Shown piece by piece: positions 2,285-29,497 of a DNA stretch of 31,305 bases. Made by a program: the position numbers and the translations under genes. The stretch is from a virus: IMG/VR virus record IMGVR_UViG_3300037585_000313, positions 1-31,305 of that record; one strand, 5' to 3'. A model generated the notes under the pieces. It was not told the DNA's origin. It did not search any database and was given only the letters and a program-made list of their open reading frames with translations. Each line of letters starts with the position of its first letter. Within the stretch, counting starts at the first letter, position 1.

Positions 2285-2651
2285 TCTGCTTCTGCCTTCT
2301 TGTGCGCTTTTAGATAGGCCCGAACCTGTCCCGCAAGTTAGACCTGTTGAGATAGTTACGATAGAGAAGCCTGCGCCTGTGTTCCATCCGGTGCTACCAG
2401 AACAGATTGTGTTCCTACCCGTAGAATGGAAGATTCTTACTCCCAGTGAGATGGAGCAGTACATTACGGATCTGAAGGCCGGGGAGGCCCCCGTAAATGT
2501 ATGGTACGGCCTTACAACCAAAGGGTATGAAAACCTGTCTGCCAATATGGCAGATATAAAACGGTACCTACGTCAGATCCTGAACATAGTAGATTATTAT
2601 CAGGACTTGAATCGGACTGAAGAAGTGCCTGAGGAAGAGTTGGTGGACTAA
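2250..2651 (+). CDS. Outer-membrane lipoprotein spanin (o-spanin, Rz1-like)
   Basis: I take the start at ATG 2250, not the in-frame codon at 2211. From 2250 the product begins MNLPRSLILLASLLLPSC, a classic lipoprotein signal peptide with lipobox LPSC and modified Cys at residue 18. AAAGGGG at 2237-2243 is a good ribosome binding site. The mature protein is proline-rich at first (RPEPVPQVRP) and then helical, about 115 residues in all. It is longer than lambda Rz1 but typical of partly overlapping spanin pairs. The first 35 nt overlap the i-spanin gene in a different frame. It acts at the inner leaflet of the outer membrane as partner of the i-spanin. Confidence 0.83.
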   Translation: MNLPRSLILLASLLLPSCALLDRPEPVPQVRPVEIVTIEKPAPVFHPVLPEQIVFLPVEWKILTPSEMEQYITDLKAGEAPVNVWYGLTTKGYENLSANMADIKRYLRQILNIVDYYQDLNRTEEVPEEELVD

Positions 2652-3070
2652 TGGACAAATTGATTGAAATGCTACGTCGCCATGAGGGCGTAGAAGCCCA
2701 TATTTATTTATGTAGTGAGGGGCATGAAACAATTGGTGTAGGCCGTAACGTGTCTAAGTCCGGTCTTGGGTTATCCGATGACGAAATCGACTACCTGCTT
2801 ACTAACGATATAGAACGGGTCCGGACGGAGTTGACTGAGGAGTATTTCTGGTTTCCGGCGCTTAACGAGGCTCGACAGCACGCTATGATTGACCTGTCCT
2901 TCAACATCGGGCAGACCCGCTTGCGGGGGTTTGTAAAAGCTTTAGCTGCGATGGCAGAGGAGGATTTTGATCGAGCCTCTGAAGAGTTCTACGACAGTAG
3001 GTGGGCTACACAGGTAGGGAACAGGGCCAGAGAAATTTGCAAGATGATACGCACGGGTGAATATGCGTAA
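2651..3070 (+). CDS. Endolysin, T4-type lysozyme (GH24 muramidase)
   Basis: 139 residues. It opens with MDKLIEMLRRHEGVEAHIYL, matching the T4 lysozyme N-terminus. The GH24 catalytic pattern Glu-8aa-(Asp/Cys)-5aa-Thr is present as E12, C21, T27 in 'RHEG...YLCSEGHETIGVG'. Cys at the second position is a known active variant of the family. The C-terminal half has the usual 'ALNEARQHAMIDLSFNIG' and 'WATQVGNRAREI' segments. It hydrolyses the MurNAc-GlcNAc bond of peptidoglycan. No signal peptide or SAR segment is visible, so release should depend on a holin. The start overlaps the o-spanin stop (TAATG), placing it at the end of a holin-spanin-endolysin cassette. Confidence 0.93.
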   Translation: MDKLIEMLRRHEGVEAHIYLCSEGHETIGVGRNVSKSGLGLSDDEIDYLLTNDIERVRTELTEEYFWFPALNEARQHAMIDLSFNIGQTRLRGFVKALAAMAEEDFDRASEEFYDSRWATQVGNRAREICKMIRTGEYA

Positions 3071-3272
3071 AGTTGTGTTTCCTCACACGAATGGGGATGC
3101 AGTCGAGCCCCTGCACACTATCGAAGTAGTCTGTGGGTACTGCGGATTTGACCTAGATGAGGCGGAACTAGCTGCGGCAACGTGTTCGGATTGTGGGGAA
3201 CCTTTAGAGCTAAAGCAGAGTGTGTCTATTACTGTAACTACATTGCCCCCTATCTTTGGGCAAACATTATAG
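3063..3272 (+). CDS. Zinc-ribbon miniprotein (69 aa)
   Basis: Two CxxC knuckles are seen, CGYC and CSDC, separated by 16 residues, so a single zinc-binding ribbon is likely. The rest is acidic, with a hydrophobic C-terminal strand. I use ATG 3063; an in-frame GTG at 3057 would add two residues. Either start overlaps the endolysin 3' end. Function is unknown. It separates the lysis cassette from the tail/neck genes and could be a structural stabiliser or a regulatory adaptor, but the sequence does not decide. Confidence 0.68.
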   Translation: MRKVVFPHTNGDAVEPLHTIEVVCGYCGFDLDEAELAAATCSDCGEPLELKQSVSITVTTLPPIFGQTL

Positions 3273-3279
3273 GTGTGTC

Positions 3280-5169
3280 ATGCCACTTAAAAAGATGGTC
3301 TTCAAGCCGGGGGTTAACCGTGAAGTAAGCCGGTATACCAGTGAGCCCGGTTGGTATGAGTGCGACAAGGTTCGCTTTCGTGGTGGGTACCCTGAAAAAA
3401 TAGGGGGCTGGCAACGAATATCTACTTCTACTTTCCTAGGGGTATGCAGGTCGCTATCAAGTTGGGTAACGCTTGGTAGCATCCAGTACATAGGGGTGGG
3501 CACTCATCTCAAGTTCTACCTTGAGGAAGGGGCAGCGTATAACGATATAACTCCTTTACGTGCTACTACTTCCGCCGGGGATGTTACTTTTGCTGCCACT
3601 AACGGGAGCAGTACCCTAACCGTCACAGATTCCTCTCATGGGGCCGTTGAGAACGATTTTGTAGCCTTTACAGGGGCCGCATCGTTAGGTGGGACCATAA
3701 CTGCGGAAGTCCTTAACCAAGAGTACCAAGTAGCTGAACTTGTAAACGCTAATAGCTACAAGATCACAGCCAAGAACCCTTCAACTGGAGTTGCGGTCGC
3801 AGCAAATGCTTCCGACAGTGGAAATGGTGGGGGCTCTATTGTAGGCAAGTACCAGATAACTACGGGGCAAGCCTACGAGGTGCCTGCGGTTGGCTGGGGT
3901 GCAGGTACTTGGGGTGGGGGTACGTGGGGTACAGGGTTATCGTCTACTGAGAATATACGTCTCTGGTCCCAAGCGCAGTTCGGGGAAGATCTTGTATTTG
4001 GTCCTCGTGATGGCCCTGCGTACTACTGGGATGCTACGAACGGCTTATCTACTCGGGCGGTTGCGCTTACATCGTTATCTGGTGCATCCGATGTTCCTAC
4101 TACACAACGTCTGGTATTTGTATCTGACGTAAGTAGGTTTGTGTTTTGCATGGGGACTAACGTGTTGGGAAGCGCGACAACAGACCCTATGTTGATACGT
4201 TGGTCTGACCAAGAGAGTGTTACGAACTGGACTCCTGCGGCTACTAATCAAGCAGGAGATCTGCGCTTGTCTAAGGGTACAGAGATAGTCAGTGCCCGAC
4301 AGTCCAGAGAAGAGATACTAGTGTGGACTGATTCCTCTCTGTACTCTCTGCAATATCAAGGCCCTCCTGCTGTATGGGGGGCTAACCTAGTCGGGGATAA
4401 TGTCTCTATTGCATCCCAAAACGCGGTCGCACACTCTAATGGAGTGTCCCTCTGGATGGGAAAAGACAAGTTCTACATGTATGACGGGCGCACCCAGCCC
4501 CTGCCATGTACGGTTCGCCGGTATGTATTTGATGACTTTAATACGCTTCAGTACGACCAAGTATTCGCGGGTACGAATGAGGCTTTCCATGAAGTGTGGT
4601 GGTTTTATTGCTCTGACGACAGTACAACTATTGATAGGTATGTCGTCTATAACTACCTAGATAAGACTTGGTACTACGGTACGATGGCTCGCACAGCGTG
4701 GATGGATTCCGGCCTGCGGGATAGCCCTTTAGCCGCAACTTATACCTACAACCTCGTAGACCACGAAGTCGGTGCGGACGATAAAGAAACTGGGACTACC
4801 ACCGCAATAACAGCAAGTATTACCTCTGGGCAGTTCGATATTGATGACGGGCATCGGTTTGCCTTAATCAGCCGTGTTATGCCCGATATGGTGTTTGAAG
4901 GGTCCACAGCTACTTCCCCAGCCGCAACTATATCCCTGTTGCCTTTGGCTAACTCCGGGTCCGGTTATAACGATCCAACGTCTGAGAGTGGTAACAGTTC
5001 AGGGGCGGTAACTCGCACGGCCACCTCTCCTGTAGAGCAGTACACAGGGCAGATACACACCCGTGTACGAGGACGGCAAATGTCGCTCAAGGTCGAATCT
5101 ACCGCAGAAGGGGTCAGGTGGCAGTTAGGTTCCCCACGATTTGATATGCGGGTCGATGGGCGACGTTAA
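3280..5169 (+). CDS. Large tail/neck structural protein (P22 gp10 stabilisation-like, tentative)
   Basis: 629 residues from ATG 3280, preceded by AGGTG at 3271-3275; an in-frame TTG at 3256 lacks such support. It begins MPLKKMVFKPGVNREVSRYT followed by EPGWYECDKVRFRGGYPEKI, an N-terminus I associate with conserved structural proteins of marine podovirus-like phages, often annotated as tail or head-stabilisation (P22 gp10-type) proteins. The body is rich in beta-strand, Ser/Thr/Gly and aromatic repeats (for example GWGAGTWGGGTWG), consistent with a beta-propeller or neck hub. It is followed with a 1-nt overlap by the jelly-roll protein. A virion role is well supported; the exact position in the tail is inferred. 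Confidence 0.7.
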   Translation: MPLKKMVFKPGVNREVSRYTSEPGWYECDKVRFRGGYPEKIGGWQRISTSTFLGVCRSLSSWVTLGSIQYIGVGTHLKFYLEEGAAYNDITPLRATTSAGDVTFAATNGSSTLTVTDSSHGAVENDFVAFTGAASLGGTITAEVLNQEYQVAELVNANSYKITAKNPSTGVAVAANASDSGNGGGSIVGKYQITTGQAYEVPAVGWGAGTWGGGTWGTGLSSTENIRLWSQAQFGEDLVFGPRDGPAYYWDATNGLSTRAVALTSLSGASDVPTTQRLVFVSDVSRFVFCMGTNVLGSATTDPMLIRWSDQESVTNWTPAATNQAGDLRLSKGTEIVSARQSREEILVWTDSSLYSLQYQGPPAVWGANLVGDNVSIASQNAVAHSNGVSLWMGKDKFYMYDGRTQPLPCTVRRYVFDDFNTLQYDQVFAGTNEAFHEVWWFYCSDDSTTIDRYVVYNYLDKTWYYGTMARTAWMDSGLRDSPLAATYTYNLVDHEVGADDKETGTTTAITASITSGQFDIDDGHRFALISRVMPDMVFEGSTATSPAATISLLPLANSGSGYNDPTSESGNSSGAVTRTATSPVEQYTGQIHTRVRGRQMSLKVESTAEGVRWQLGSPRFDMRVDGRR

Positions 5170-5786
5170 TGGCGAACGAGATATATAGAGGAGCCCCTCC
5201 TGCTTTACCTCAAGCAACGGACATGTATAACCGCCCATACATGGACCAGCTTAACGGAGTGCTTCGGCTATTCTTTACCCGCTTCACTGGTACGTTAGAT
5301 ACCCTGTTGCGGACTGATGGGGGAGGTAAATTCTTATATTCCCCCCACGGTATGTTCTATAGCACAGCCGATCAGTCGGCTGCAGGCATTAATACCGGAT
5401 ACTCAGTAACTTTTAATACCACTGACACGAGCAATGCGGTCAGTGTCGCTAGTAGCAGTCGTATAACCGTCGATAACGATGGGCTGTACGGGTTCGATGT
5501 GATGCTGCAGGTAGAGAACAACGACGCTGCTGAACAGACCGTCCTTGTATGGCTTGCGTTAAATGGATCAAACAAAGCGTACACAGCACAGAAATACACT
5601 GTAGGTCCGGGGGATTATTCCAGCCTGCATTGTCTGTTCCATGTATCTCTTACAGCAACCCAATATGTAGAGGTCAAGTGGGCTACTAGTGACACAGACG
5701 TTAATCTGCATACGGAGAGCGCCTCATCCCCCCATTCCGGTATACCGTCTGCCTCTGTAGCGGTGTCGTATATTAGTAATATATAA
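5169..5786 (+). CDS. C1q/TNF-like jelly-roll virion protein
   Basis: 205 residues. Residues 18-50 form a short 'MYNRPYMDQLNGVLRLFFTR' trimerising or attachment segment. About 55-205 is an all-beta domain with the pattern of the many marine phage jelly-roll proteins: 'HGMFYSTADQSAAG..TGYSVTFN', 'GLYGFDVMLQVEN', 'VLVWLALNGS', 'VEVKWATSDTDVNLHTE', 'HSGIPSASVAVSYIS'. Such modules are commonly trimeric and exposed on the virion as receptor-binding or decoration proteins. The start is coupled to the upstream stop (TAATG). A 63-nt spacer follows, the longest gap in this part of the operon. Confidence 0.75.
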   Translation: MANEIYRGAPPALPQATDMYNRPYMDQLNGVLRLFFTRFTGTLDTLLRTDGGGKFLYSPHGMFYSTADQSAAGINTGYSVTFNTTDTSNAVSVASSSRITVDNDGLYGFDVMLQVENNDAAEQTVLVWLALNGSNKAYTAQKYTVGPGDYSSLHCLFHVSLTATQYVEVKWATSDTDVNLHTESASSPHSGIPSASVAVSYISNI

Positions 5787-5849: not shown

Positions 5850-6152
5850 TTGGACTTTTTAAAGCTTTTTAACGCTGTTGCGTTATCCCAGAAGAGCATA
5901 CCTTCCGATTATGTACCCGCAACTGCACTCAACGATGTAGTAGATGAAGATACGCTTAACCTAGATAGCTTGGACGTTGCAATGACGTACTTTGTCCTAG
6001 CTGAAGCCTATGGCATACCCGAGGATGGTGATGAGGAATTACCTAAAGGTATGACCGTTCAGGACCTTTACGATCACCTGCTGAAGGAGAAAACCGTTGA
6101 TCCTGAAGACACCTATGAGTCCGTAGAAGAGTTACTGGAGGATTTAGGGTGA
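5850..6152 (+). CDS. Acyl carrier protein-like protein (phage-encoded)
   Basis: 100 residues. The phosphopantetheine attachment motif of acyl carrier proteins is present as LNLDSLDVAMTYFVLAEAYG (residues 36-55), with Ser40 in the invariant D-S-L at the start of helix II. A helix IV-like 'MTVQDLYDHLLKE' (68-80) corresponds to the 'TVQAAIDYI' element of E. coli AcpP. The protein is strongly acidic, as ACPs are. The C-terminus (81-100) is an extra acidic helix. The start is TTG at 5850, chosen because AGAGGAG (5837-5843) is correctly spaced and no in-frame ATG occurs before the motif. The stop overlaps the ketosynthase start (GTGA). It would need a phosphopantetheinyl transferase from the host, since none is seen here. 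It probably carries the chain extended by, or delivered to, the neighbouring ketosynthase. Confidence 0.82.
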   Translation: MDFLKLFNAVALSQKSIPSDYVPATALNDVVDEDTLNLDSLDVAMTYFVLAEAYGIPEDGDEELPKGMTVQDLYDHLLKEKTVDPEDTYESVEELLEDLG

Positions 6153-7264
6153 TCTATATAACGCATTACCGCACCGCAAGTACTACCGAAAAAACCCTTA
6201 TTGATGACGTTCCGTACCCTCAACACGCCCATATCCTCCCTAAGACCTTCAAACGGGCTAAACGTGGGATGTCCTACCCTCCTCATAAACTTTTAGAGGG
6301 ACTTCTGGATGAAGATCTCCTTAATTACGTCCGTGACAATCCAGTTAAGGGTAAGACCGGATTCCTGTTTGCCGCAGGTAATCAAGGATGGATGGGCAAC
6401 AATGGGCGCTACGACAAAGACCCTTCTGCGCAACTGCACTACAAGATAAAGGTACCTTTTATCGTGCTATCTAATATCTATGCAGGGCGCATAGCTGGCA
6501 TGTTTGGGGTACACGATCACGTATCTACGGATGCTAGTGCCTGTGCGTCCAGCCTGAAAGTCCTCATGGATATGCAGAACCTGATGAATAACTTTGGGTT
6601 TGACCGGGTTGTAGTGTTTACCGGAGAAGACAGCGTAAACAATCTTGTCTTAGAGTTTTTTGGGGAGGCGGGAGCCAGCCTGCAGTACAAGGATGAGGAG
6701 GACATGCAGCCTTCCGCTTTCGATGAGCGGAACCAAGGGTTTCATATTGGGCAGGGGGCAGCGGTTATGGTTTTTGAGAAAGAACATCCCAACATGGCTG
6801 ACCCTGCGGCTATGTTCCTCGGGGCGTATAGTTCCGCCGAAGATAACACCAACCCGCTGGGGCAACGGTCTGATGGGAGTGGGTACAGCAAAGCTATAGA
6901 AGGTGCCCTCTATATAGCCAATCTGCCCCCAAATTGTGTAAAGTTAGTGAAGACGCATGGCACTGGTACGCCAGTAAACAATGCTGCGGAAAGAACGGCT
7001 TTATTGCGATCCCTAGGTCCTGACTTTATAGCGACCTCATACAAGCCCTTGGTAGGGCATACAATGGGAGCAAGCGGCCTGCTGGAAACAGGTTTACTGT
7101 TGGACGACATGAAGCGTAACTACGTGCCCAAAATACTTAACCGTACGGCCTACGATCCTGTGTTCCTTTCGGAAAGCGCAGAGGTCCCGGCTGGGCCTTT
7201 CCTCAGTCTAGCTGCTGGCATGGGTAATATTTACTCTGCCGCGCTGTTCCTTCCGGCGTCTTAG
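6149..7264 (+). CDS. Beta-ketoacyl-ACP synthase II-like enzyme (ketosynthase, phage-encoded)
   Basis: 371 residues from GTG 6149, coupled to the ACP stop. The thiolase-fold ketosynthase signature motifs are all visible in order: nucleophile Cys132 in DASACASS (127-135), preceded by 'NIYAGRIAGMFGVHDHVSTD'; 'FDERNQGFHIGQGAAVMVFE' (191-210, the FD..R.GF..GEG.. motif); His270 in KTHGTGTPVNNAAE (268-281); His304 in KPLVGHTMGASG (299-310); and a Gly-rich C-terminal 'GMGNIYSAALF'. Cys-His-His is the triad of the decarboxylating FabF/FabB type, not the Cys-His-Asn of FabH. The length is somewhat below the usual ~410. The expected reaction is Claisen condensation of malonyl-ACP with an acyl thioester. 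No ketoreductase, dehydratase, enoyl reductase or acyltransferase gene is seen in the window, so these would come from the host or not be needed. Confidence 0.87.
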   Translation: MIYITHYRTASTTEKTLIDDVPYPQHAHILPKTFKRAKRGMSYPPHKLLEGLLDEDLLNYVRDNPVKGKTGFLFAAGNQGWMGNNGRYDKDPSAQLHYKIKVPFIVLSNIYAGRIAGMFGVHDHVSTDASACASSLKVLMDMQNLMNNFGFDRVVVFTGEDSVNNLVLEFFGEAGASLQYKDEEDMQPSAFDERNQGFHIGQGAAVMVFEKEHPNMADPAAMFLGAYSSAEDNTNPLGQRSDGSGYSKAIEGALYIANLPPNCVKLVKTHGTGTPVNNAAERTALLRSLGPDFIATSYKPLVGHTMGASGLLETGLLLDDMKRNYVPKILNRTAYDPVFLSESAEVPAGPFLSLAAGMGNIYSAALFLPAS

Positions 7265-7265
7265 T

Positions 7266-7757
7266 ATGCAGATAGTGAACAGCAAAGAACGACTTTTGGA
7301 GGGGCCTGTGATCCTCGGTATGGCTGCTAGTAACGATAAGCAGACCACGGATCAGTATTCCCCCGACCAGTACCTAGCATTTATTGCCTCTGAGATGACG
7401 ATACCCGGCACTGATGCAGTGCAGATCGGTAATACGGTCTTTATAGGGCACAAGGGGAAGGGTAAGAACAAGCGCAAGATGGTCGGGCGTGCGTTTAACG
7501 TAGATACAGGGCGTAACTTCATTCTGAATGGGTTCAAGTACTTTACTTACCTACAGAAGAGAAAGATCACGCACTATATGACTACGTTTCGTACCCCCGT
7601 GTTCCTGAATGCGTTTAAGTTGTTTGACCGTAGGGCGCAGCAGCAAAACTCTGACACCTTATTCAGTATAGGTAAGGTTAAGGGTACGGATGAGTATGTC
7701 GTGTATATCCACTTGGGTAAGAAGCCCCTCATGGGACCGTTACTTCGGAATAGATAG
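7266..7757 (+). CDS. Unknown 163-aa protein, possible GNAT-like fold (acyltransferase or T7 gp13-type)
   Basis: It starts 1 nt after the ketosynthase stop and ends directly before the 2076-residue protein. The predicted pattern is strand (NTVFIGHK), strand (KMVGRAFNVD), helix (ILNGFKYFTYLQKRK), strand (THYMTTFR), helix (VFLNAFKLFDRRAQ), strand (TDEYVVYIHLGK). This order, with 'TPVFLNAFKLFDRR' in the place of the N-P..A..LY.K.GF element, is compatible with a GNAT fold. T7 gp13, required for internal virion proteins, occupies an equivalent genome position and has been noted to resemble GNATs. No confident acetyl-CoA loop is seen. Alternatives are an ACP-dependent acyltransferase partner of the two preceding genes, or a purely structural morphogenesis factor. 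Confidence 0.4.
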   Translation: MQIVNSKERLLEGPVILGMAASNDKQTTDQYSPDQYLAFIASEMTIPGTDAVQIGNTVFIGHKGKGKNKRKMVGRAFNVDTGRNFILNGFKYFTYLQKRKITHYMTTFRTPVFLNAFKLFDRRAQQQNSDTLFSIGKVKGTDEYVVYIHLGKKPLMGPLLRNR

Positions 7758-10700
7758 ATGGCCGCTGTAGAACGCTTCAGTAAGAAAGTATTCGATATAG
7801 TCGAAGGTGCGGTTGACTGGGTAGTTGATCGTGTTGAAGACATCGGTGATTTTGTTGTAAACGACATTATAAGGCCGGTGGGGCGGTGGGTAGACGATTT
7901 CGCGCATGGGTTCTTTGAGGACCCTTTAGCAGCCACTCTCAGGATAGCCGCAATCGCGACTGGGCAGTTATGGGCTCTCCCTTTGATAGATGGAGTGGAG
8001 ACCTACCGTGCGGGAGGTTCACTGGGGGATGCTCTGAAGGCCACCGCAATATCCTATGTGTCCGCTAAAGTTGGGGGTGAGGTAGGAGATTTTGTCGGAG
8101 AAGCCGTAGGGGACAAAGTTGGTAGCCAGCTTGTTGCCGATATGATTGCTGGTGGAGCAGAGGGAGCTACTAATGCGGTCATATACGGGGAAGATCCTCT
8201 TGAAGCCTTTCTTAGAGGGGGGCTCGCACCGGCTATAGATGCAGCGACGGGCGTCATTGCAGACCGACTAGACTGGGAAATAGATATTGTCAACGAAAAC
8301 GGGGAGGTAACCGGAACTAGACTTCTGCCTAGTGCAGTACAGAATGTAATAGGGACTTCTTTAGCGGCTGCGTTGACTGGTGAGGATGTTAATTCAGACA
8401 TTATTAACCGTGCTATTAGCCGTAGCCTTATAACTACGCAATTTATACAAGGGGTAGCAGGGCATTTAGGTATCGATTTAGAGGACCCTAGGAAATTAGC
8501 CTACATAGCCGCAGCTTCACAACGTGTTGTAGGAAGTATTTTAAGTGGGGAAGGTGGGGAAGCAGCGGGTAGGGCTGCATACAACACTTTCAAAGCCTAC
8601 ACCACAAAGGAGTTCCATGATTTATTAGATGAGACTGATTTTGGAGTTTCTTTCGGAAATATTTTAGATAAATTTTCCGGAGATTACGGAGAAACTGAAG
8701 CACTAGCTGCCAGATCAGACGGACTCTATCAGGAATGGAAAGACAAGTACCCTAATTACGAAGAGGACTCCGAAACATTACAGACGCTACGTGACAAGTG
8801 GATGCCGCAGATAGAGCGGATACGGGAGCTAACTCGCCTTCATGATGAGGGTGGTGGCGACATGCATCTACAAGGGCTGATAGATGAAATAAACAAACTT
8901 ACTGCGGAACTTGCTGCAGACATAGATACCGACCTAGATGCGTATCAAGCTGCACTAGAGTCTGTTACCGCTGCAGATGCAGATCCGTTAGTTAAGGAGT
9001 ATGACCTTGCTCTGGGTGAGTACAAAGATTCTTTGGAAAACCTAAACAACAGTAGCGAAAACCTCGATGAGGCTCTTATAGCGCAGGAAGAAGAAATAGG
9101 TACTGCTTTTGCTATTGCGCTAGATCCTAATTTTAACGCAGCAGAATATGCTTATCTAAATAAACTTGGGGAAGCTCTTAGTGAGTCGCAAGTCGCCCAA
9201 CATTATTTGGAAAATGTACATAATAGCCCTGTTACTAATATAGAAGACTTCCAACGTAGATTGCACAAAAATTGGAACACACTTGTAAACAATGTTTTAA
9301 GTGCTACCGATAAAGATGCATTCAAACTTAGAGGGGGAAGTCCTTCTGCACACGCGCAACAGGCTTTAGGAGCACTGTGGGATAAGTTTGTAGCGGAGAA
9401 TGGGACCGGAACCGATATTCTTGGAGCTATTGCACAGGTAAATAGTTCTTTCTCTGCCGATCAGATTGACCCTTCTGTACAGGAAGACTTCTTAGCGGCT
9501 TGGAACGAGATTATCACCGAAGCAGGGGACAATCTTCCTCCCGGTGAATCTGCCAGCATATTTGCAGCCGAGATACAGGATTCAGAAGACGCTCCAGTTG
9601 ATTGGGCCGGTATCGTTTCGGCTACTCCTATAGATCTACTAAATCTTCCGGTAGGCAGAGGGCCAGATGGAAGTTTAATACAGCTATCGGAATACGAAGA
9701 GCGGTACAACGGGATGAATGGTCGAGAGACTGTCATACGTACGATGGTTAGTCCGGGGGTTTTTAAGGAAGAAATAACAACTTTCGATGCTAACGGTGAC
9801 CCCACAACTTCTACCCGTATCGTAGATTTTTCCGAGAATCTACGGGAATCCCTTAGTCCTGAAGATAGTGCGCTTGTATTTATGGCTGCGGCTTCTCAAG
9901 GCGACGGGGAGGAGGTTGCAGAACTCCTAGATATGGATCAGTCCCTCGTTGACCAATTAAGCAACGTCATGGACTACTTCGTAAACAGTGACGAGTGGGA
10001 GTTTGAAGCCCGTAGCGAGATTTTCGACGCTACGTTTACGTTGGATAACACCAACGTACAGAACATTATGGCTAATACCTTTAGGGGTATAGGTGGTGTT
10101 TTTGAAGCATTCGGCACCACGTACGATTTTATTAGCTCTATTGAGCCTGTAGGTAGTGATAGCTGGCGACTCGGGGAAATTGAAGAGAGCGCGTTCACTC
10201 GGTTTGCTCAAGATCTTGCTGCAATAGGGGAAGGTGGACTCACAGAAGAGTACACAGCCGATAAAGAAGCCTTTGACGGACGGGTATCCGCCGCGATAGA
10301 GGGGAAGACTTACCGTGATACTTATGAAGCAAACATAGCTGCCGGGTTCACCGTAGAACAAGCTACAGCAGCAGCGATAGCCGCACGGGATGCTATGTCC
10401 ACAACGGAGCGTTCTCTTGAAGTTATTGAGGGGCTTTTCGGGGCTATAGAAGACCACCCCACAATGTTTCTCGCTGAGTACATAGGTGTAGAACTTTCTC
10501 AAGAACTTGTTCCCCTCCTAATTGGCGGGGCCGCAGGGGTAGCAGCTAAGGGCGCTGCTAAAATAGTTGGGCGTAGTGATGAGGTAGCTGAGCTTCTTGC
10601 AGGAAATGTATCGCTAAACGCCGCTCTTATGTCCGACGTAGCTGAAAGTTTTGGATCGGCTGCTGGCGGGGCCTACGAACAAGCCCTAGATGTGGCGCTT

Positions 10701-13700
10701 CGTTCTGGGCTGGGAGAGGAGGAAGCTCGCGCCTATGCGACCAATATTAGTTGGAACGCTGGCCTGCTTCAGGCGACCGCTGTTCTTGCGCTAAACAAGG
10801 TTGGGGGAGATGCTTTAGAACAAAACATATTCGGGCGGAATTTGCCAGATGCCCCGGAATACAACCCTTTAACAGGGGATATCGCTGGGGATAGCGTTAC
10901 TTTGCTTGGGCGTAGCATCGATGCGTTGGTAGACCGGGTAGGGGAAGGAACTTCGATATTCTTTAAGGAAGGTGCTACCGAGTCTGTTGAGGAGGGACTT
11001 GTTGCCAATTATGTAAGTGGGCAGTTGGCCTTGTTAGACCCTAATATTGATGTTACAGGCGATGTTTCTGGCGCTGTTGTAATGGCGTTCCTCGCTGGAG
11101 GCGGTACAACCGGTTCGATATACGGGTTGTCACAAACCGGTGATCTAGCCTCTAACCTGATTATTGCTACCGACGAAGACGTACGAGACATATTAGACAA
11201 TTTTGAATCCGCCTATGATGCTTATGTAGCAGACGGAAGCCTTCCAACAGCGTTTACAACACTGTATGACAATGCCGCAGCGGCGTTAAATAGCGCAGGT
11301 ATAACCGCTACTACATTAATCAATAACATCCTAGGCACTGTTGCCCAAGATGAAATAACGACTACGGCAGATGTAAGAGACGCTATAGCCGACCGGGCTG
11401 CTGAAGACGGAGAGTCTGCGTATAGCGCGTTTACTGTTGGGGACATAAACAACCTTGTCAGTGAACCGCCCGAAAATTTAAACGGAGAAATCGATGCCAT
11501 TATCGATAAAGAAGCCGTAGACGATGAGGTTGACCTAGACGAAGAGGTTGACGAAGAGGTTGACCTAGACGAAGAGGTTGACCTAGACGAAGAGGTTGAC
11601 CTAGACGAAGAGGGTGACGATGCAATTTCTCTAGGTGGCTCAGGTATTACTGGTGAAGGCTCCATTGATTTGGATCTTGACGTTGCAGATGACGAGGGTA
11701 CAGGTTTTACCGCCCCCATGACTGGCACCAGTGGTCAAACAGAAGGCCCACCTTTATCTGAAGATGACGAAGAAGAAGACGATGAGGTTGACCTAGACGA
11801 TGAAGTTGACCTAGACGAAGAGGTTGACGAAGAGGTTGACGAAGAGGTTGACCTAGACGAAGAGGTTGACGAAGAGGTTGACCTAGACGAAGAGGTTGAC
11901 GATGAAGAAGCCCCCTTCCGCTACATGGGAGCGTCGTATGCACTGGCTGAGCTAGGGAGTAGCTTAGAAGAAGCTAGGGCTGATTTAGTTGCGTCACTCA
12001 CTGATAACGGTGGGGATCTAGAGGACGCTTTAAGTACTCTGGCTGATAAGTTAGAAGTAAGTCCGGAGGGCCTTACCGGCCTTATAGGTGACTGGGCCTC
12101 AAGCGTAGCCGCAGACGTATCTCTCGGTGCAGATCTTGAAACAAGTCTGGCTGAGTTAGGGACTGATATATCCAGTGTTGAGACTCGGTTAACTACGTTA
12201 ATCAACGCTAACGACGGTGATGTCGATCAAGCTGTAGCTGATCTAGCTGCAGAGCTAGGTACAACCGAGACCAACCTTTCTAACACCATAGGTAATCTGG
12301 CTACAAAAGTAGCTACAGATATAGCGGGTCTGACAACAAGTCTGGCTGAGTTAGGGACTGATATATCCAGTGTTGAGACTCGGTTAACTACGCTAATCAA
12401 CGCTAACGACGGTGATGTCGATAAAGCTGTAGCTGATCTAGCTGCAGAACTAGGTACAACCGAGACCAACCTTACTAATCTTGTAGGTGATTTAGCTACA
12501 GACGTAGCTGCAGATATAGCGGGTCTGACAACAAGTCTGGCTGAGTTAGGGACTGATATATCCAGTGTTGAGACTCGGTTAACTACGCTAATCAACGAAA
12601 ACGACGGTGATGTCGATAAAGCTGTAGCTGATCTAGCTGCAGAACTAGGTACAACCGAGACCAACCTTACTAATCTTGTAGGTGATTTAGCTACAGACGT
12701 AGCTGCAGATATAGCAAGCCTTGAAACAAGTCTGGCTGATCTCGGGACTAGCGTAAGTGAGGTTGAGACTGAGCTAACTAAGCTAATACAAGATCAAGGG
12801 CTAAGCACCGACGAAGCTATAGCTACACTAGCTGGAGATTTAGATACAACTGCAGACAACCTTACTAATCTTGTAGGTGATTTGGCTACAGACGTAGCTG
12901 CAAATATAAAAAACCTAGAAGCAGGTCTGGCTGATCTCGGTACTGATATAGATGGAGTCGAGGCCCGGTTAACTGAGCTAATACAAGATCAAGGGCTAAG
13001 CACCGACGAAGCTATAGCTACACTAGCTGGAGATTTAAATACAACTGCAGACACCCTTACTAACATCATAGGTGGTCTGGCTGCAGACGTAGCTGCAGAT
13101 ATAGCAGGTGTTACAAAAGACGTTGCAGACGTTGCGGATGTACTGGGTACGCCGGGGCGGGATGACGACCCTTCTACCCCCAATGTCGATGAGTCTGTTG
13201 ATCCTACCGGGTTGTTTGCGGACATCGCTGCTAAAGAAGAAGCGGGGATGCAACGTGACGCGGCTATTGAATCCGCCTTATCTGACCTTTCGGTTGACCT
13301 AGATATATCTATTGAGGAAGTCCTTGAGAGGATAGACCTCGCTGAGACTACTCTTGGAGAATCTTTAACAGGTACCGAAGCGGCTTTAGCGAGCGATATT
13401 GATGCAGTCGCGGATCTAGTAGGTAAGCCCCGACAGGATGTAACCGCAACGGATATTGATTTCGTTGCTGATGTCATAGCGCAGAATAAAGTTCTAACAG
13501 AGAACCAGCTTGCGCTGTACGATGTCACCGGGGACGGCCAGATCACTATTGAAGACCAGCAGATGCTGGATGATCTGCTTGCCGGACGCCCAGTTGATGT
13601 AGCTACTACATCTCCGTTTGCGGGGCCCACAGGTATTTACGCAGCGATAGATGCTAATACCCAAAGAGAACTTGATGCGCTAACTGAAACTAAAATCGAC

Positions 13701-13988
13701 TTACAGACTGACTTTAACAGGCAGCTTCAGCAGGAACAGAAGGAAAACCTCCTTATGGATGTCTTGTCGGACCCTGCTTCGATGAGGCGAGAAGTGTCTG
13801 TTACTACGCCACCCCCAACGAATATTGATTACCTATACGACTTTGGTAGTATTTTTGCCAACCCCCAGCAAGCAGGGCTGTTTGCCAGTCCTTATGGAAC
13901 TGACCCCCAAGGCAGATCCCTTGCTACTCAATTAGGTGCCACAACAGATCAACTACTAGGGCTAGTTGGCCCCAGAGGTAGAGGTTAG
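7758..13988 (+). CDS. Giant internal virion/ejection-type protein with tandem repeats (2076 aa)
   Basis: 2076 residues. Residues 1-330 are Ala/Gly-rich and amphipathic (RPVGRWVDDFAHGFFEDPL near 35-55). About 330-1250 is mostly helical, with hydrophobic stretches such as LVPLLIGGAAGVAAKGAAK and VVMAFLAGGGTTGSIYGL. Two highly acidic blocks of DEEV/DLDEEV repeats lie at about 1254-1287 and 1339-1384. Six tandem 65-68-residue repeats of alternating helices follow (1395-1787), each opening with SLAELG-like text. A dockerin/EF-hand-like loop DVTGDGQITIED sits at 1922-1933. Size, position before other ejection-type genes and helical content suggest an internal virion protein, analogous in role to T7 gp15/gp16 or a tape-measure-like element. 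It has no recognised catalytic domain. The assignment is inferred from context and composition. Confidence 0.65.
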   Translation: MAAVERFSKKVFDIVEGAVDWVVDRVEDIGDFVVNDIIRPVGRWVDDFAHGFFEDPLAATLRIAAIATGQLWALPLIDGVETYRAGGSLGDALKATAISYVSAKVGGEVGDFVGEAVGDKVGSQLVADMIAGGAEGATNAVIYGEDPLEAFLRGGLAPAIDAATGVIADRLDWEIDIVNENGEVTGTRLLPSAVQNVIGTSLAAALTGEDVNSDIINRAISRSLITTQFIQGVAGHLGIDLEDPRKLAYIAAASQRVVGSILSGEGGEAAGRAAYNTFKAYTTKEFHDLLDETDFGVSFGNILDKFSGDYGETEALAARSDGLYQEWKDKYPNYEEDSETLQTLRDKWMPQIERIRELTRLHDEGGGDMHLQGLIDEINKLTAELAADIDTDLDAYQAALESVTAADADPLVKEYDLALGEYKDSLENLNNSSENLDEALIAQEEEIGTAFAIALDPNFNAAEYAYLNKLGEALSESQVAQHYLENVHNSPVTNIEDFQRRLHKNWNTLVNNVLSATDKDAFKLRGGSPSAHAQQALGALWDKFVAENGTGTDILGAIAQVNSSFSADQIDPSVQEDFLAAWNEIITEAGDNLPPGESASIFAAEIQDSEDAPVDWAGIVSATPIDLLNLPVGRGPDGSLIQLSEYEERYNGMNGRETVIRTMVSPGVFKEEITTFDANGDPTTSTRIVDFSENLRESLSPEDSALVFMAAASQGDGEEVAELLDMDQSLVDQLSNVMDYFVNSDEWEFEARSEIFDATFTLDNTNVQNIMANTFRGIGGVFEAFGTTYDFISSIEPVGSDSWRLGEIEESAFTRFAQDLAAIGEGGLTEEYTADKEAFDGRVSAAIEGKTYRDTYEANIAAGFTVEQATAAAIAARDAMSTTERSLEVIEGLFGAIEDHPTMFLAEYIGVELSQELVPLLIGGAAGVAAKGAAKIVGRSDEVAELLAGNVSLNAALMSDVAESFGSAAGGAYEQALDVALRSGLGEEEARAYATNISWNAGLLQATAVLALNKVGGDALEQNIFGRNLPDAPEYNPLTGDIAGDSVTLLGRSIDALVDRVGEGTSIFFKEGATESVEEGLVANYVSGQLALLDPNIDVTGDVSGAVVMAFLAGGGTTGSIYGLSQTGDLASNLIIATDEDVRDILDNFESAYDAYVADGSLPTAFTTLYDNAAAALNSAGITATTLINNILGTVAQDEITTTADVRDAIADRAAEDGESAYSAFTVGDINNLVSEPPENLNGEIDAIIDKEAVDDEVDLDEEVDEEVDLDEEVDLDEEVDLDEEGDDAISLGGSGITGEGSIDLDLDVADDEGTGFTAPMTGTSGQTEGPPLSEDDEEEDDEVDLDDEVDLDEEVDEEVDEEVDLDEEVDEEVDLDEEVDDEEAPFRYMGASYALAELGSSLEEARADLVASLTDNGGDLEDALSTLADKLEVSPEGLTGLIGDWASSVAADVSLGADLETSLAELGTDISSVETRLTTLINANDGDVDQAVADLAAELGTTETNLSNTIGNLATKVATDIAGLTTSLAELGTDISSVETRLTTLINANDGDVDKAVADLAAELGTTETNLTNLVGDLATDVAADIAGLTTSLAELGTDISSVETRLTTLINENDGDVDKAVADLAAELGTTETNLTNLVGDLATDVAADIASLETSLADLGTSVSEVETELTKLIQDQGLSTDEAIATLAGDLDTTADNLTNLVGDLATDVAANIKNLEAGLADLGTDIDGVEARLTELIQDQGLSTDEAIATLAGDLNTTADTLTNIIGGLAADVAADIAGVTKDVADVADVLGTPGRDDDPSTPNVDESVDPTGLFADIAAKEEAGMQRDAAIESALSDLSVDLDISIEEVLERIDLAETTLGESLTGTEAALASDIDAVADLVGKPRQDVTATDIDFVADVIAQNKVLTENQLALYDVTGDGQITIEDQQMLDDLLAGRPVDVATTSPFAGPTGIYAAIDANTQRELDALTETKIDLQTDFNRQLQQEQKENLLMDVLSDPASMRREVSVTTPPPTNIDYLYDFGSIFANPQQAGLFASPYGTDPQGRSLATQLGATTDQLLGLVGPRGRG
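11519..11907 (+). repeat. Acidic microrepeats (12-nt and 18-nt units) inside the 2076-aa gene
   Basis: Two clusters (about 11519-11619 and 11773-11907) are built from the 12-nt unit GACGAAGAGGTT (DEEV) and the 18-nt unit GACCTAGACGAAGAGGTT (DLDEEV), nearly identical at nucleotide level. They are separated by about 50 codons of Gly/Thr/Asp-rich sequence. Both units keep the frame, so slippage changes length without disrupting the protein. The products are polyanionic linkers flanking the start of the 65-residue repeat array. Confidence 0.9.
11940..13118 (+). repeat. Six tandem 65-68-residue coding repeats in the 2076-aa gene
   Basis: Copies begin at 11940, 12144, 12339, 12534, 12729 and 12924. 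The first is 204 nt; the other five keep an exact 195-nt period. Each begins SLAELG or a variant and has a segment like VETRLTTLI, then AVADLAAELGTTETNLTNLV and VAADIA. Copies at 12339 and 12534 are almost identical in DNA over about 170 nt (GCT to GAA the only codon change), implying recent duplication or homogenisation. The first and the last two copies have diverged. The heptad-like content suggests stacked helical hairpins. Confidence 0.92.
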
Positions 13989-14785: not shown

Positions 14786-15745
14786 ATGGCTACTGGAATT
14801 GCAACTGGAACTGGGGTAGACCCGAAACAAACAGCGGGTAGTGGTGTAGGTTTAGGTCCCGATCCTAATGTAGGGCAACACACCGGATCAGAATCTTCCC
14901 TGTCTAGTTGGGCGGGGCCGTATGTCACTGACATATTGGGTAGAGGGCAGGCTTTGGGGGATATGCCCTACCAAGCCTATACCGGACCGCTTACGGCTGG
15001 CCCTTCGGCGCTACAGCAGCAGGCTGCTACAGGTATTGCAGCTTTAGGGGTCCCCACGGATGCATCAGGTGCTGCCCTACAGCCCTACCAGCCTCAGTCA
15101 TTTACGGCTGATGGCACTGCACAAACTTTTATGAACCCCTACATCCAGCAGGCTCTGAACCCGCAATTGGATGAGCTTCGGCGGCAGACCGATATTGCGC
15201 GTACCGCACAGAACGCCAAGTTAGCCCAAGCTGGAGCCTATGGGGGGTCTCGACAGGCGCTGGCAGACGTAGAGTTGACTAGGGCCATGCTCGACAAGAT
15301 GGCTGGGGTAACTGGCGAGGGGTACCGGGATGCTTATTCTCGTGCAGCAGAACAGTTCAACTTAGAACAGGACCGCGCCCAAACTGCCCGAGACCGTGCC
15401 CTAGAATATGGAATTGGGGTATTGGACGCCCAATCGCAGGCAGGGCGTGAGATGCGGGATATAGAACAGGAAGGTATCGCCGCAGATTACCTGCAGTTTG
15501 AGGAAGAACGTGAGTTTCCTTACAAGCAGACACAATACATGCAGTCGCTTCTCCAAGGATTGCCTCTTGCAGCCCAAAGTTTTTCGTATTCTGAGCCTAG
15601 TGAACTATCCACACTCCTAGGTGGCGCGGGGGGCATTATGGAGCTACTGAATTGGGGCAGGAAAGATGAGAAGAGTGCTAAAGAAACAGCGGAAGATGCT
15701 GTGGGGGAGAAAATAGTAAATACGGTAGGGGGACTGTTTACATGA
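14786..15745 (+). CDS. Virion ejection-type protein (319 aa)
   Basis: 319 residues, with AAAGG at 14772-14776 and spacing of 9 nt to ATG 14786. The central region 'FMNPYIQQALNPQLDELRRQ ... AKLAQAGAYGGSRQALADVE' (about 113-170) matches a motif widespread in podovirus and marine phage proteins that are thought to leave the capsid with DNA. A long helical segment follows (about 170-255), and the C-terminus contains LSTLLGGAGGIMELL. The Ala/Gln-rich helical build fits P22 gp7/gp20-like ejection proteins. The next gene starts within its stop (ATGA). Confidence 0.66.
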   Translation: MATGIATGTGVDPKQTAGSGVGLGPDPNVGQHTGSESSLSSWAGPYVTDILGRGQALGDMPYQAYTGPLTAGPSALQQQAATGIAALGVPTDASGAALQPYQPQSFTADGTAQTFMNPYIQQALNPQLDELRRQTDIARTAQNAKLAQAGAYGGSRQALADVELTRAMLDKMAGVTGEGYRDAYSRAAEQFNLEQDRAQTARDRALEYGIGVLDAQSQAGREMRDIEQEGIAADYLQFEEEREFPYKQTQYMQSLLQGLPLAAQSFSYSEPSELSTLLGGAGGIMELLNWGRKDEKSAKETAEDAVGEKIVNTVGGLFT

Positions 15746-17394
15746 TTAACCAAGGAATTGCTGCAACGGTTGATGACAAGGTAGATGCCTACCGCGCTAA
15801 CCCAGATGCGCTTGCTCAACGGGCCAAAGGTAGTCAGGACCTTCTCGACTTGCTCGCACTACAGCAGGTAAACAAAGAGAAAGAAGCTGCCAAACGGCAG
15901 ATTCAACTGAACACGCAGCCTCCCCAAGACACTATTCTGGCACAGCTAGAAGCTGAAGCTGTCGGGCGCACTAAAGAAGACATGGTGAACCAGATTGGCG
16001 GCATCATGCGGACGCAGAACCAAGCCCAAGCAAAGAACATGCAGAGAGTGGGTAAGGAAGGTGCTGCAACCCCCCAACAACTTGCCGGTGTCCAACAAGG
16101 ATTAGGGCAGGTTGCAAGCCGGATAAACCCTAATATAGCCCGTGCCCGTGCAGGGGGGATTGTTGGGTTCAGTAATGGCGGACTGGTACAGGATATACAG
16201 GACGCTATCGTAAGAAGGGACAAACAGAAATTAATCGACCTTGGTGGGTACACCCTTGAAATGTTTGGGGACAACCCCGATGCCGCTAGTATAGCTAGAG
16301 TGGTTAGGGAAAAAGGTAGGCAAAGCGGCTTCGCTGAGCCTCCAACAAGAACATCTTCAGTGGAAGAACAGCCTCCAGTGGGGGGACAGCCTCCAGTGGG
16401 AAGACAGGGTTTTGATCCCGGCTCCATCAACATTCCGAAATTGGATGCGTCTAAAGGGATTCCTTCTGTTCTTGAGGAAGGGGAAACCCTAGAAGGACGT
16501 ACAAGTAAAGTTTTCGGGCTTGGTGATGAAGGTATAGCAGGTTTTGGCCCCAAGGCGCAGGACCAAGCAGGTCTTGAAGCCGTACAAAAATACAAAACCG
16601 ACGCTAACTTAGACGAAAACAGAGCGAATTTGCGGAGACTGCAGGCTGAACGTGCCGATCCACAGGCTCGTGATCGTGATCGACTTATCGCAGGTCTACT
16701 GGGAGCTTCAGGAAGAGCTTCTACGGCTCTTGCAGGGGCAGGCGCTGCTTCGATGCAGTATAGGCAACGCGCTGCAGATGATGAATACAACGTAGCCACG
16801 CAACTGGCGGGTCTTGATCGTCAGACCAGCCAAGATATGGCTACCATAAGTCAAAACGCCAAAAACGGAATGGCACAGAGACAAAAAACATACGCAGAAT
16901 ATCTCGGGACCATAACCGAAGCTGAATACAAACGCGCTGTAGCCGAAATGAGCGATCAGACCCAACGCGATATTGAAAACGCTAGAAATGAAGTAGCTAA
17001 AATTGAGCAGGAGATGCTTAACCTACGGGAGGCAGAGACAAGCCGTAGGATGAGTCAGCGGGATAAAATGACGTACCTCGACTCAGCCTTAGAACGAGTC
17101 CAGACACTGCGTCAAGCCCTGCAGGCGAACATACTTGAGGAGTTTAAGGCACAACGGGAGCCCTATATTGGCCGATTGTCGCAGCTTGTGAATGCATCCA
17201 CCGAGGAGGATATAGCTGAACGCGAGCAGTTAAACAAAGAAATCGCAAAGTTAGATGAAACGGCCCGAACACAGATGATGACGGCAGATGAAGTAGCAGA
17301 TCTGATAAAGCAAGAACAAGCAATTGTAGCCGAGATGGAGCGTACAGTAGGGAACAGCCAAAGTTTTGGGCCTGTTGAGGTCGTAAACCCTTGA
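15742..17394 (+). CDS. Internal virion protein candidate (550 aa, coiled coil)
   Basis: 550 residues. Residues 1-110 are Gln-rich and helical. About 133-150 holds 'ARAGGIVGFSNGGLVQ', a Gly-rich motif I associate with marine phage structural proteins. About 195-230 is a Pro/Gly linker with a short tandem repeat (EQPPVGGQPPVGRQ). From about 260 to 540 it is a long, strongly charged helical or coiled-coil region, for example EMSDQTQRDIENARNEVAK. It is translationally coupled to both neighbours (ATGA start; its TGA overlaps the TTG of the next gene). A role in the ejection or core complex with the two giant proteins is inferred from context; I do not recognise a named family. Confidence 0.64.
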   Translation: MINQGIAATVDDKVDAYRANPDALAQRAKGSQDLLDLLALQQVNKEKEAAKRQIQLNTQPPQDTILAQLEAEAVGRTKEDMVNQIGGIMRTQNQAQAKNMQRVGKEGAATPQQLAGVQQGLGQVASRINPNIARARAGGIVGFSNGGLVQDIQDAIVRRDKQKLIDLGGYTLEMFGDNPDAASIARVVREKGRQSGFAEPPTRTSSVEEQPPVGGQPPVGRQGFDPGSINIPKLDASKGIPSVLEEGETLEGRTSKVFGLGDEGIAGFGPKAQDQAGLEAVQKYKTDANLDENRANLRRLQAERADPQARDRDRLIAGLLGASGRASTALAGAGAASMQYRQRAADDEYNVATQLAGLDRQTSQDMATISQNAKNGMAQRQKTYAEYLGTITEAEYKRAVAEMSDQTQRDIENARNEVAKIEQEMLNLREAETSRRMSQRDKMTYLDSALERVQTLRQALQANILEEFKAQREPYIGRLSQLVNASTEEDIAEREQLNKEIAKLDETARTQMMTADEVADLIKQEQAIVAEMERTVGNSQSFGPVEVVNP

Positions 17395-20300
17395 CCACCT
17401 ATACAGTCCAAGGTCTGGATGGGACCCGTTACAAAATAAACGGGCCTCCGGGGGCTACTGAAGAGCAAGTAGTCGCAGCTATACGCGCAAGTCTGGCTGA
17501 GCAGGAACTGGCTAGGCAGGAAGAAGAAAGGCAGCGTGCCCCTGTTGAGGACGAACGCCCAGCACGTCGCGCTCTTGTTGAAGCCGAACGCCCCGCACGT
17601 CGCGCTCCCGTTGAAGATTCTACTTGGTACGAAAACCTCGCTGCGGGTGCAGGGGCTGGTGCTGTTGGTACGTTTGAATCGGCTGCGCTTGGTACGGCTG
17701 CGCTGCTTGAGGAGGAGGAAGAACTAGCAGCCAGAGAAAAGATTCAGGGTATAGCCTCGCAGTTCACACCTGAGTTTGGTGATCCTGATAGCTTCGCGTA
17801 CACCGCAGGTACGGGTATAGGTTCCCTAGCGGCGTTCTTCTCGCCCCTTGCGCTTCCCTTTGTAGTTCCGGGGGGCGGTCTTGCAACCGCTGTCGCTGGG
17901 GGAGTAGGTCTGGCGGGAGCAACCGCACTCGGAGTAGCAGGTGGAGCCGGTGAGGCCAGCGAGCGTGCCCGTGCCGCAGATGCCACTGAAGACGAACGTA
18001 ATACGGCAACACTACTTGGTGCCGGTGTCGGTCTATCTGAAATACTTCCGTGGATGAAAGTTCTGGGCCGGGTACCGGGAGTAAGAAATCTTCTTAGTAA
18101 GACTGATATTGCAAAGACTAATGACCTAGCTAAACAGCCTTCGGGTCTTCTGGCTACGCCTATACGTATCGCAGGGAAACTAGTCAAGAGAGGTGGAGCA
18201 GAAGGTGCCCAAGAAGTTTTTGCGGAGGTCGCGCAGGACGCCATAGAGAAATATGGGTATAACCCGGACCATCAGTTCTTTGATGGTGCAGGATTGGAAG
18301 AACTGAAGAAATCCGCTCAAGCGGGTGGCGTAGCAGGCGCAGTTGCACAAGCTGCAATTATGGCGTTTGGAGGTAGAAGGCGTACGGCTACCCCATCTGC
18401 TTCTGACGAGGTTACCGAAGGGACCGGTACCTTAGCTACTCGGGGCGAACTGTTTGATGAAACAGTTGAGGACGACATTGGTAGCCTTGTAGCTGCTTAT
18501 GATGAGACTACAGGTCCTCCTGAAGCTATTCCCGAACAGAGGGAATTAGATTTCGGTTTAGACCCGGAACCGGTAGACAGACCGGAAGCCCCTAGTAGAG
18601 GGCCTACTCCCGCATTGGATGTTAGGGAACCTGCGACAGAAGAGGGTACTGCCGAATCCCAAGTTGCGGAAACGTCTCCGCGTAGGGTGCTGAGTGTAGC
18701 GCAGGAAGAACTTCGTGCACTTGAAGATATAGCAGCAGAAACAGACCCCGAAATCAGGGGTGCCGCGCTGGATGCTAAACGTATTAGCAAGGAAGACCCC
18801 GCAGCACTACCCGAGCGCATTGCTGCTGTACGTAGCACCATAGACGAAGCCACCAGAGCACTGCCTCCAGAGCAGACCGATCTGTTCTCTACACAGGGGG
18901 AATTAAACTTAGGTCCGTTGGAGACCCGCGAGTTAGACGACGCCACTATCGAGGAACTGAGTGCTGTAAGTGACGCTGATCTGGAAGGGGATAGATTTCT
19001 AACAGAACAAGCGCAACCCGAACAACCCCGGCCAGCACCTGAAGTAGTTGACGCTAAGTTCTTAGATGACCTTGGAATCCCCAAGAAAGGGAAGGCTGCT
19101 GAAGCCCTACGTAAGGACGTAGAAGGTAAACCCCTTAGCGCTCCTGAGGTGCGGGAGAACCTTACGCAGTTTGCTAATAACAGGCGCGTTGGGGCAGCTA
19201 CCAGAGCGAACATCATCCGCAATATAGAGGGCACACCGGAAGGTCAGACAGACCTTTTCATGCCCCCGCCACCTACCCCTGCGGTAGCTCCAACCCCTGC
19301 GGTAGCTTCAACTCCTGAGGTAACCACTACTCCTGAGGTAGCTCCAACCCCTGCGGTACCCGTTACTCCTGAGGTAGCCACTACTCCTGAGGTAACCACT
19401 ACTCCTGAGGTAACTCCTTCCCCTACAGGAAAGAAACGAAGAAATCAAGGGACTCAAGTACGTGGTTCCGATCCTTCTGTAACTCCTAGGAGAATACAGA
19501 CTAAGAGAAGGATGCCCCCGGAAACGCCGCCCAGCAAAGTAAAGCAGCCTACGGAAGAGGTAGCCAAGAAAAAGGCTAAAGACGACGCAGCCGAGAAAAA
19601 AGCCGCAGCCGAGAGAGAAGCCGAGGAGAAAGCCAAGAGAAAGGCCGAGAAAAAAGCCGCAGCAGCTAAGAGAAAAGCCGCAGCCGAGAGAAAAGCCAAG
19701 AAAAAAGCTGAAGAAGACCTAACGCTCCCTAAGTATAGGGACCTCTATAAGACTTTAGGTGAGTATTTTGCTACACGATTCAAGGGGGTACGCAAGGAAT
19801 ACGCTACGAAGGAAGATATAGCCAAAGTAAAAGCTATAACGACAAGGCCGACGACGGCAGGTAAGGGAGCCCTAGCGTTAGCTAATACTAAGGCTGTCAC
19901 CGTGCTCAATTCTCTCGATGGGTACTTTGGTAAGACCCCCCGAGTTAGTGATGCTGTTTCATTGGCTATATACGACGTAGTTACCAAACAACCGCAGTAC
20001 AGACCGCCTACCGCCGACGTGGCCCCGGAAGAGAAAAATGCCATAGAGGCAGAAGCTGAATTTTTCAAGCATATGAGTGCTAAATCCGGAGCGCGTGTAC
20101 TTGCTTGGGTCGAAGCTAATCTGTCCCCACAGTTCAATACGTGGGTGCGGGAGCAGCGGGAAGCAGTAGAGCTAGATATAGCGAGGCGCGTTGCTGAAAC
20201 AGAAGCTGTAGATGCGACTCTTGAATCCGCGAAAAAACGGAACAAAGCCATTGCTCGCAAGAACAGAGCCGAGGCAAGGCAGAATAGGACAGAGGCAGAG

Positions 20301-27405: not shown

Positions 27406-27406
27406 T

Positions 27407-28138: not shown

Positions 28139-28142
28139 GTGT

Positions 28143-29035: not shown

Positions 29036-29040
29036 ATCTT

Positions 29041-29433: not shown

Positions 29434-29468
29434 CCTGCCCAACCGTTCTAATTCGTTGTAGGGCAGAG

Positions 29469-29497
29469 ACTATACTAGCGTGCTCTACGCTAGTCAA
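29469..29497 (-). promoter_or_regulatory. Sigma-70 promoter with palindromic spacer (putative operator)
   Basis: On the minus strand TTGACT (29497-29492) and TATAGT (29474-29469) are separated by exactly 17 nt, each five of six to consensus. The spacer and edges hold the perfect inverted repeat ACTAGCG/CGCTAGT (29494-29488 and 29480-29474) with a 7-nt centre, a likely repressor or activator site. The promoter overlaps the SNF2 gene stop and would drive the 130-aa, HTH, Cys-cluster, SSB and primase-helicase genes. A protein bound to the palindrome would directly block RNA polymerase. Confidence 0.72.

Follow-up and report, generated by a model that had tools for sequence, protein, structure and literature searches.

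The nearest counterparts of the locus described here are found in bacteria and in other phages. The toxin-activating acyltransferases HlyC and CyaC have a GNAT-like fold, take their chain from acyl-ACP and acylate a neighbouring protein, relying on the acyl carrier protein (ACP) of the host. In Salmonella SPI-1, a dedicated ACP, IacP, is linked to the acylation of SipB, a translocon protein whose membrane insertion is thereby promoted; a conserved SipB Cys is crucial, and the accessible text of that account names no ketosynthase or GNAT partner (PMC5279801). In cobaviruses and in T7 (gp13), GNATs lie beside internal virion proteins, with a proposed role in virion morphogenesis and no ACP or ketosynthase companions noted (PMC6775973). 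Finally, acpP, fabF and fabG of Rhodobacteraceae prophages and the ACP of Alteromonas phage R22Y have been described as fatty-acid AMGs, and the accessible parts of these accounts link neither the prophages nor R22Y to a GNAT or to a virion operon (PMC8224337, PMC11705849).

The window analysed here is a 31,305-nucleotide viral DNA stretch (IMG/VR record IMGVR_UViG_3300037585_000313, positions 1 to 31,305). The parts of its cassette come from known superfamilies, and acpP and fabF have been called phage AMGs before; what appears to be new is a module of ACP, beta-ketoacyl-ACP synthase (KS) and GNAT-fold protein within a virion operon. No such phage module is described in the literature searched, a partial selection, in agreement with the original prediction, which knew of no characterised system of this form. 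With FabF/FabB (KAS II/I) the KS shares two-domain homology and the Cys-His-Lys-His set, but it is only 24-30% identical to cellular ketosynthases, falls in a virus-only clade and has its own ACP partner in the virion operon. That dedicated ACP also sets the cassette apart from HlyC and CyaC. IacP-SipB may be the closest working analogy for the logic of the cassette, as opposed to its family membership: in both, going by the accessible text on IacP, an ACP outside the housekeeping set has a genetic link to a delivery protein that inserts into membranes, although in the cassette this acceptor is putative.

The cassette in its virion operon

Three tightly packed genes on the plus strand (positions 5850-7757) form the cassette, in the order ACP, KS and GNAT-fold protein (X), and a long virion gene follows directly:

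5850..6152, plus strand: ACP, 100 aa, with Ser40 in NLDSLDV (family profile, Pfam, AF2 model, invariance)
5967..5969, plus strand: codon of ACP Ser40, the predicted 4'-phosphopantetheine site (sequence, invariant column)
6149..7264, plus strand: KS, 371 aa, of a virus-only clade, with Cys132, His270, Lys299 and His304
7266..7757, plus strand: GNAT-fold protein X, putative acyltransferase, 163 aa (AF2 and Foldseek, adjacency to KS)
7758..13988, plus strand: 2076-aa virion-operon protein with a hydrophobic, lysine-poor, amphipathic N-terminus, candidate acyl acceptor

The ACP gene starts at a TTG with GAGGAG just upstream, and the KS gene begins at a GTG that overlaps the ACP stop codon (GTGA). 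The original prediction had both reading frames and their coupling right, and it correctly named Ser40, Cys132, His270 and His304, which are invariant in the family alignments together with Lys299. Its two-gene cassette stands as an ACP-KS pair but not as the whole unit, since the GNAT-fold gene belongs to it as well. This third gene, the fixed gene that follows it, and the KS N-terminus and GMGN loop that differ from FabF had gone unmentioned.

The cassette occurs in hundreds of genome fragments from aquatic phages, amid virion-building genes. A survey of ACP-KS synteny, proposed with the prediction, finds an ACP profile match adjoining the KS in 144/144 loci, which is not chance. X adjoins the KS in 134 of 136 KS loci, and conversely the KS is present in 119 of the 122 loci retrieved with X as query. 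Two contigs (L069, L070) have ACP and KS with no recognisable X directly after. One other contig (L315/L319) has X and the downstream protein without an adjoining ACP or KS, so that its GNAT may draw on CoA or on an ACP of the host, or have no acyl donor at all. In this locus (L315:3706-4450) an 81-aa ORF (MIIYDPRGQTFVSWASLMCELF...) occupies the place of ACP and KS, upstream of an amphipathic protein of the same type.

A long ORF starts right after X in the 250 loci with a readable ORF, at gaps that are nearly all -4 to +2, and the N-terminal profile of its product is found in 247 loci. The gene keeps its position, and its product the type of N-terminus, in KS-less and GNAT-only loci as well. 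This N-terminus is hydrophobic, acidic and lysine-poor, of the type M[S/G/A]xVVxxVxDVV... Position 2 is S, G or A in 135/152 distinct N-termini, a figure inflated by related sequences, and phage proteins often have a small residue there (MANEI and MSELD occur in the window). Methionine aminopeptidase would expose such a residue, which hints weakly at an N-terminus open to acylation. Lysine acylation in this region is disfavoured: the first 60 residues hold 1.5 Lys on average, so an N-terminal or other acylation site is more likely. Farther along, the repeat region of the 7758-13988 product matches a tape-measure PHROG. Codons ~1200-1770 encode repeats of acidic EEVDLDEEVD and, in several nearly identical copies, of 'AELGTDISSVETRLTTLINANDGDVD', and these give apolipoprotein, PEP and tape-measure profile matches that probably reflect coiled-coil composition.

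The surroundings are virion and lysis genes, away from metabolic genes, as predicted, with replication genes farther off:

3256..5169, plus strand: phage 'stabilization'/virion structural protein (phrog_3287, 1.8e-69)
5169..5786, plus strand: 205-aa variable protein (phrog_3614, 3.3e-4), often unrecognisable in distant relatives
14786..15745, plus strand: DNA-ejection-protein-like ORF (phrog_4287, 7.5e-5), two genes beyond 7758-13988
24356-27184, minus strand: DUF927 primase/helicase
27407-28174, minus strand: Gp2.5-like ssDNA-binding protein
29490-31022, minus strand: SNF2 helicase

The 3256-5169 protein is common to HTVC023P, DSL-LC04, CRP-901 and others, in which neither the KS nor the ACP of the window has a match. 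Lysis genes lie just before the structural genes, at 1886-2284 and 2651-3070 (Rz-like spanin, phrog_739, 8e-12; phage lysozyme, 2e-12). The 2231-aa protein encoded at 17391-24086 is perhaps a giant internal, injected protein: over its C-terminal third it matches phage proteins of very large size, DarB-like antirestriction proteins (phrog_10089, 4e-39) among them. The replication genes occupy 24169-31303 in the opposite orientation.

Carrier protein and ketosynthase

Profile searches place both proteins in the families first proposed for them. The product of ORF 5850-6152 is a true acyl carrier protein, with a predicted helical-bundle fold. Its single-sequence matches are weak (NCBIfam 0.015, PDB 0.19); the profile of the 31-member family meets ACPs throughout the 60 PDB matches listed (best 8e-7), and 11 of the 31 members match Pfam PP-binding (best 4e-5). 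The AF2 model (pLDDT 92.5) sets the carrier Ser at the start of helix II (helix 40-53), and a Foldseek search with it returns mostly ACP structures at weak E-values (best 0.15). D39-S40-L41 is invariant in the family alignment even though identity falls to 25%. The carrier Ser is kept in 282/282 ACP loci, corresponding to 168 unique sequences, with some loci re-fetched from one contig. SEDSM and PPDSM motifs, present in some loci, are not the carrier site.

Judged by its sequence, ORF 6149-7264 is a genuine ketosynthase of the KAS I/II type in the thiolase superfamily. It matches Ketoacyl-synt_C (PF02801, 7.9e-16) and ketoacyl-synt (PF00109, 1.4e-10) over the Pfam cut-offs, a FabF-like NCBIfam model (1.4e-30) and, as the best PDB entry, FabF 1ox0 (1.1e-21); the NCBIfam equivalog cut-offs of named enzymes are not reached. 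Two-domain homology to FabF/FabB spans residues about 68-338, with the motifs HGTGT and GHTMGASG, and the part N-terminal to it is unmatched by Pfam domain models. FabF has the loop GFGG where this protein has a C-terminal GMGN. With its different N-terminus and loop, the KS is by these features not a plain FabF.

C132, H270, K299 and H304 are invariant in the KS family alignment, in which identity goes down to 50%, and the catalytic Cys, His and Lys+His are intact in 272/272 KS loci of at least 340 aa (183 unique sequences, some loci again being re-fetched from one contig). Loss of Ser40 or Cys132 in close homologues, named beforehand as a result that would tell against the prediction, was looked for and is seen in none of these ACP and KS loci. 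Between close pairs the dN/dS of KS is 0.03-0.07. Because the catalytic residues are totally conserved despite divergence, a purely structural role of KS and ACP is unlikely, and so is the structural reuse of the fold that had been offered as an alternative.

The GNAT-fold protein and relatives without a ketosynthase

The window X protein has no significant match to a Pfam or PHROG family, nor do 29 family members to Pfam. Its AF2 model, built from 29 sequences, has a pLDDT of 93.7 and the order aabbb-a-b-a-bb, and the matches listed at the top of a Foldseek search against the PDB are GNAT acetyltransferases (prob 0.91-1.00, TM ~0.5). On the strength of this model X is probably a GNAT-fold protein and a putative acyltransferase, called divergent because the TM of these matches is moderate.

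What would X use as a donor? In GNATs the beta4-alpha3 loop binds the CoA pyrophosphate. The corresponding motif, [QR]xxGx[GA], is absent in 267/277 X loci, and among the 10 with a match those inspected are misplaced or chance-like; in place of R/QxxGxG/A stands a short loop with a D80-T81 that is invariant in the X alignment. X is for this reason termed GNAT-fold rather than a proven CoA-using GNAT enzyme. Such a loop would fit a non-CoA donor such as ACP, a reading preferred here over lost catalysis, although X could alternatively be a catalytically dead GNAT. Among the 29 members there is no Pfam match to the autoinducer-synthase (LuxI) family or to the HlyC family, and the X alignment has no invariant His; X is accordingly not counted as a member of the HlyC/CyaC group.

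Three contigs (L224, L236, L328) lack the KS through two different deletions that left remnants, with ACP and X intact. L224 and L236 share one deletion (L224:1881-2742, L236:2607-3468), and the remnant in L236 (MSKPTKGALFIAKAHKNDVRL...) is 87% identical in DNA to an internal piece of KS over 61 bases. In L328 (3971-4865) the remnant MIYMTQ-DDSVFLSSDAPVPEGMGNIYSAALFSREV consists of both KS ends fused. The remnants are short, in-frame and situated between the ACP and GNAT genes, and these loci keep a complete ACP with NLDSLD and an X with the D-T loop. Between L224 and L236, dN/dS is 0.145 for the ACP (8 nonsynonymous, 13 synonymous) and 0.022 for X (2.5 and 27.5), about the same as in KS-bearing pairs, the comparison being of one contig pair with few substitutions. 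A KS elsewhere in the 41-kb record of L236, possibly incomplete, was sought, and none was found.

ACP and X therefore appear to go on working without a phage KS, and a host KS may stand in after its loss. With KS deleted while ACP and GNAT remain intact, ACP and GNAT look like the core of the module, and KS like an accessory lost by some phages. These relatives also make a small polyketide-like product, one of the outcomes first envisaged, less likely than the loading and transfer of an acyl group.

Proposed acylation and its alternatives

Why would a phage place such genes among those for its particle? The cassette nearly always stands directly before one particle-protein gene, which suggests late modification of the phage's own parts or of a host molecule. 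Tentatively, and with a chance somewhat short of even, ACP, KS and GNAT are read here as a late acylation module in which the acyl group would pass from ACP through the GNAT to an acceptor, possibly the adjacent virion or ejection protein, with KS as accessory. Host AcpS would put phosphopantetheine on Ser40 of the ACP, no phage PPTase having been found. Host fatty-acid enzymes would then charge the ACP with an acyl or malonyl group, and the phage KS, whose identity and active site are clear, may extend the chain or set its length. Going by its predicted fold and gene coupling, the GNAT-fold protein would shift the chain from ACP to the acceptor.

The likeliest acceptor would be a virion or ejection protein, above all the product of 7758-13988, where a lipid on the lysine-poor amphipathic N-terminus would aid entry into the host envelope. 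It is gene order that points to this protein, and in phages such order is often a matter of assembly modules; where GNATs stand next to internal virion proteins, they may also serve another role. The fuller proposal, that a large group of aquatic phages lipidates its own ejection or internal virion protein through a self-encoded ACP-KS-GNAT and so aids insertion into the host envelope at DNA delivery, is possible but leans towards the unlikely. Should a virion protein be acylated, this large group of aquatic phages, known here only from metagenomes, would have a dedicated pathway of lipidation that serves genome delivery; should the product be a small molecule, the virion genes would harbour a viral route of biosynthesis. 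Either way, a virus-only ketosynthase clade and a GNAT-fold family without sequence annotation gain a candidate role.

The second outcome is the subject of the best-surviving alternative. LuxI, FeeM and OlsB use acyl-ACP and have a GNAT-type fold, and a GNAT of this kind would release a signal, an aminolipid or an N-acyl amino acid from acyl-ACP and so change the membrane or the signalling of the host in late infection. KS, a dedicated ACP and GNAT would make a plausible make-and-release set, and the KS catalytic residues are conserved; against this, X matches neither an autoinducer synthase nor any other family, the cassette is locked in place before one virion-operon gene in 250 loci, and KS is dispensable. 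An N-acyltransferase of that type is unlikely here.

A further alternative would make ACP and KS fatty-acid AMGs that raise fatty-acid synthesis or membrane fluidity in the host, next to a GNAT that is an unrelated, gp13-like morphogenesis neighbour. There is precedent for both halves, in the acpP/fabF/fabG and acpP AMGs, as far as the accessible text on them goes (PMC8224337, PMC11705849), and in the GNATs near internal virion proteins (PMC6775973). The distribution of KS speaks against it. IMG/VR holds 99 relatives of the window KS, and at least 569 when searched with the KS alignment. In the phages collection the sole true member is MW202545.1, metagenomic and recorded as complete (KS 53%, ACP 32% identity), where KS is annotated as 3-oxoacyl-ACP synthase and the ACP and GNAT as hypothetical proteins; phrog_35856, of unknown function, is a homologous phage KS (6e-31). 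Among prokaryotes, represented by one genome per species for 84,980 species, a single close relative turns up, a Balneolaceae-binned contig (L083, 49%), which is probably phage because ACP, KS and X all stand on it among phage-like genes; the other matches are 24-30% identical. In a tree made by a quick method, whose tool warned that long branches meet, 36 phage KS form one clade (support 100) on a stem of ~3.6 changes per column. As far as sequences can tell, KS is thus a long-resident, virus-only phage gene and no recent pick-up from a host, and a host-acquired AMG is set aside as the main reading.

Neither PPTase (PF01648), FabD (PF00698) nor an SDR reductase (PF13561) was detected in 20 related records including MW202545.1, in a search that matched the control genomes and in which absence from fragments is not proof. 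The host must then supply phosphopantetheine transfer and malonyl or acyl groups, and a fatty-acid role sits poorly with these gaps, with the distance of KS from metabolic genes and with the persistence of ACP and GNAT after KS loss, where the two genes of an AMG pair should both have decayed. The AMG alternative is accordingly doubtful. Records labelled 'phage' from Listeria, Enterococcus, Staphylococcus, E. coli and Acinetobacter carry FabF/FabB-like sequence at 22-30% and were taken as bacterial; the unannotated records OR848703, OR846615 and MT835553 (FabF-like, 22-30% to the query) are probably bacterial contamination.

ACPs also have partner roles apart from synthesis, in complex I and with MukB and SpoT. 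A scaffold or chaperone function, with ACP, KS and GNAT binding each other or virion proteins in assembly or regulation and acyl chemistry beside the point, would suit genes inside a virion operon and the morphogenesis role proposed for T7 gp13 (PMC6775973), but is improbable given the unbroken conservation of the KS Cys, Lys and two His (272/272) and the ACP Ser (282/282), needless for a scaffold.

The cassette also bears on the unexplained GNATs beside the ejection genes of T7-like phages. Roseobacter phage CRP-901 has a GNAT (gp34, phrog_1249; L163:12957-13391) directly before a DNA-ejection-like protein, without ACP or KS. Unlike X, it is a conventional phage acetyltransferase, and no profile similarity between the two was detected. 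This arrangement suggests a wider pairing of GNATs with ejection proteins.
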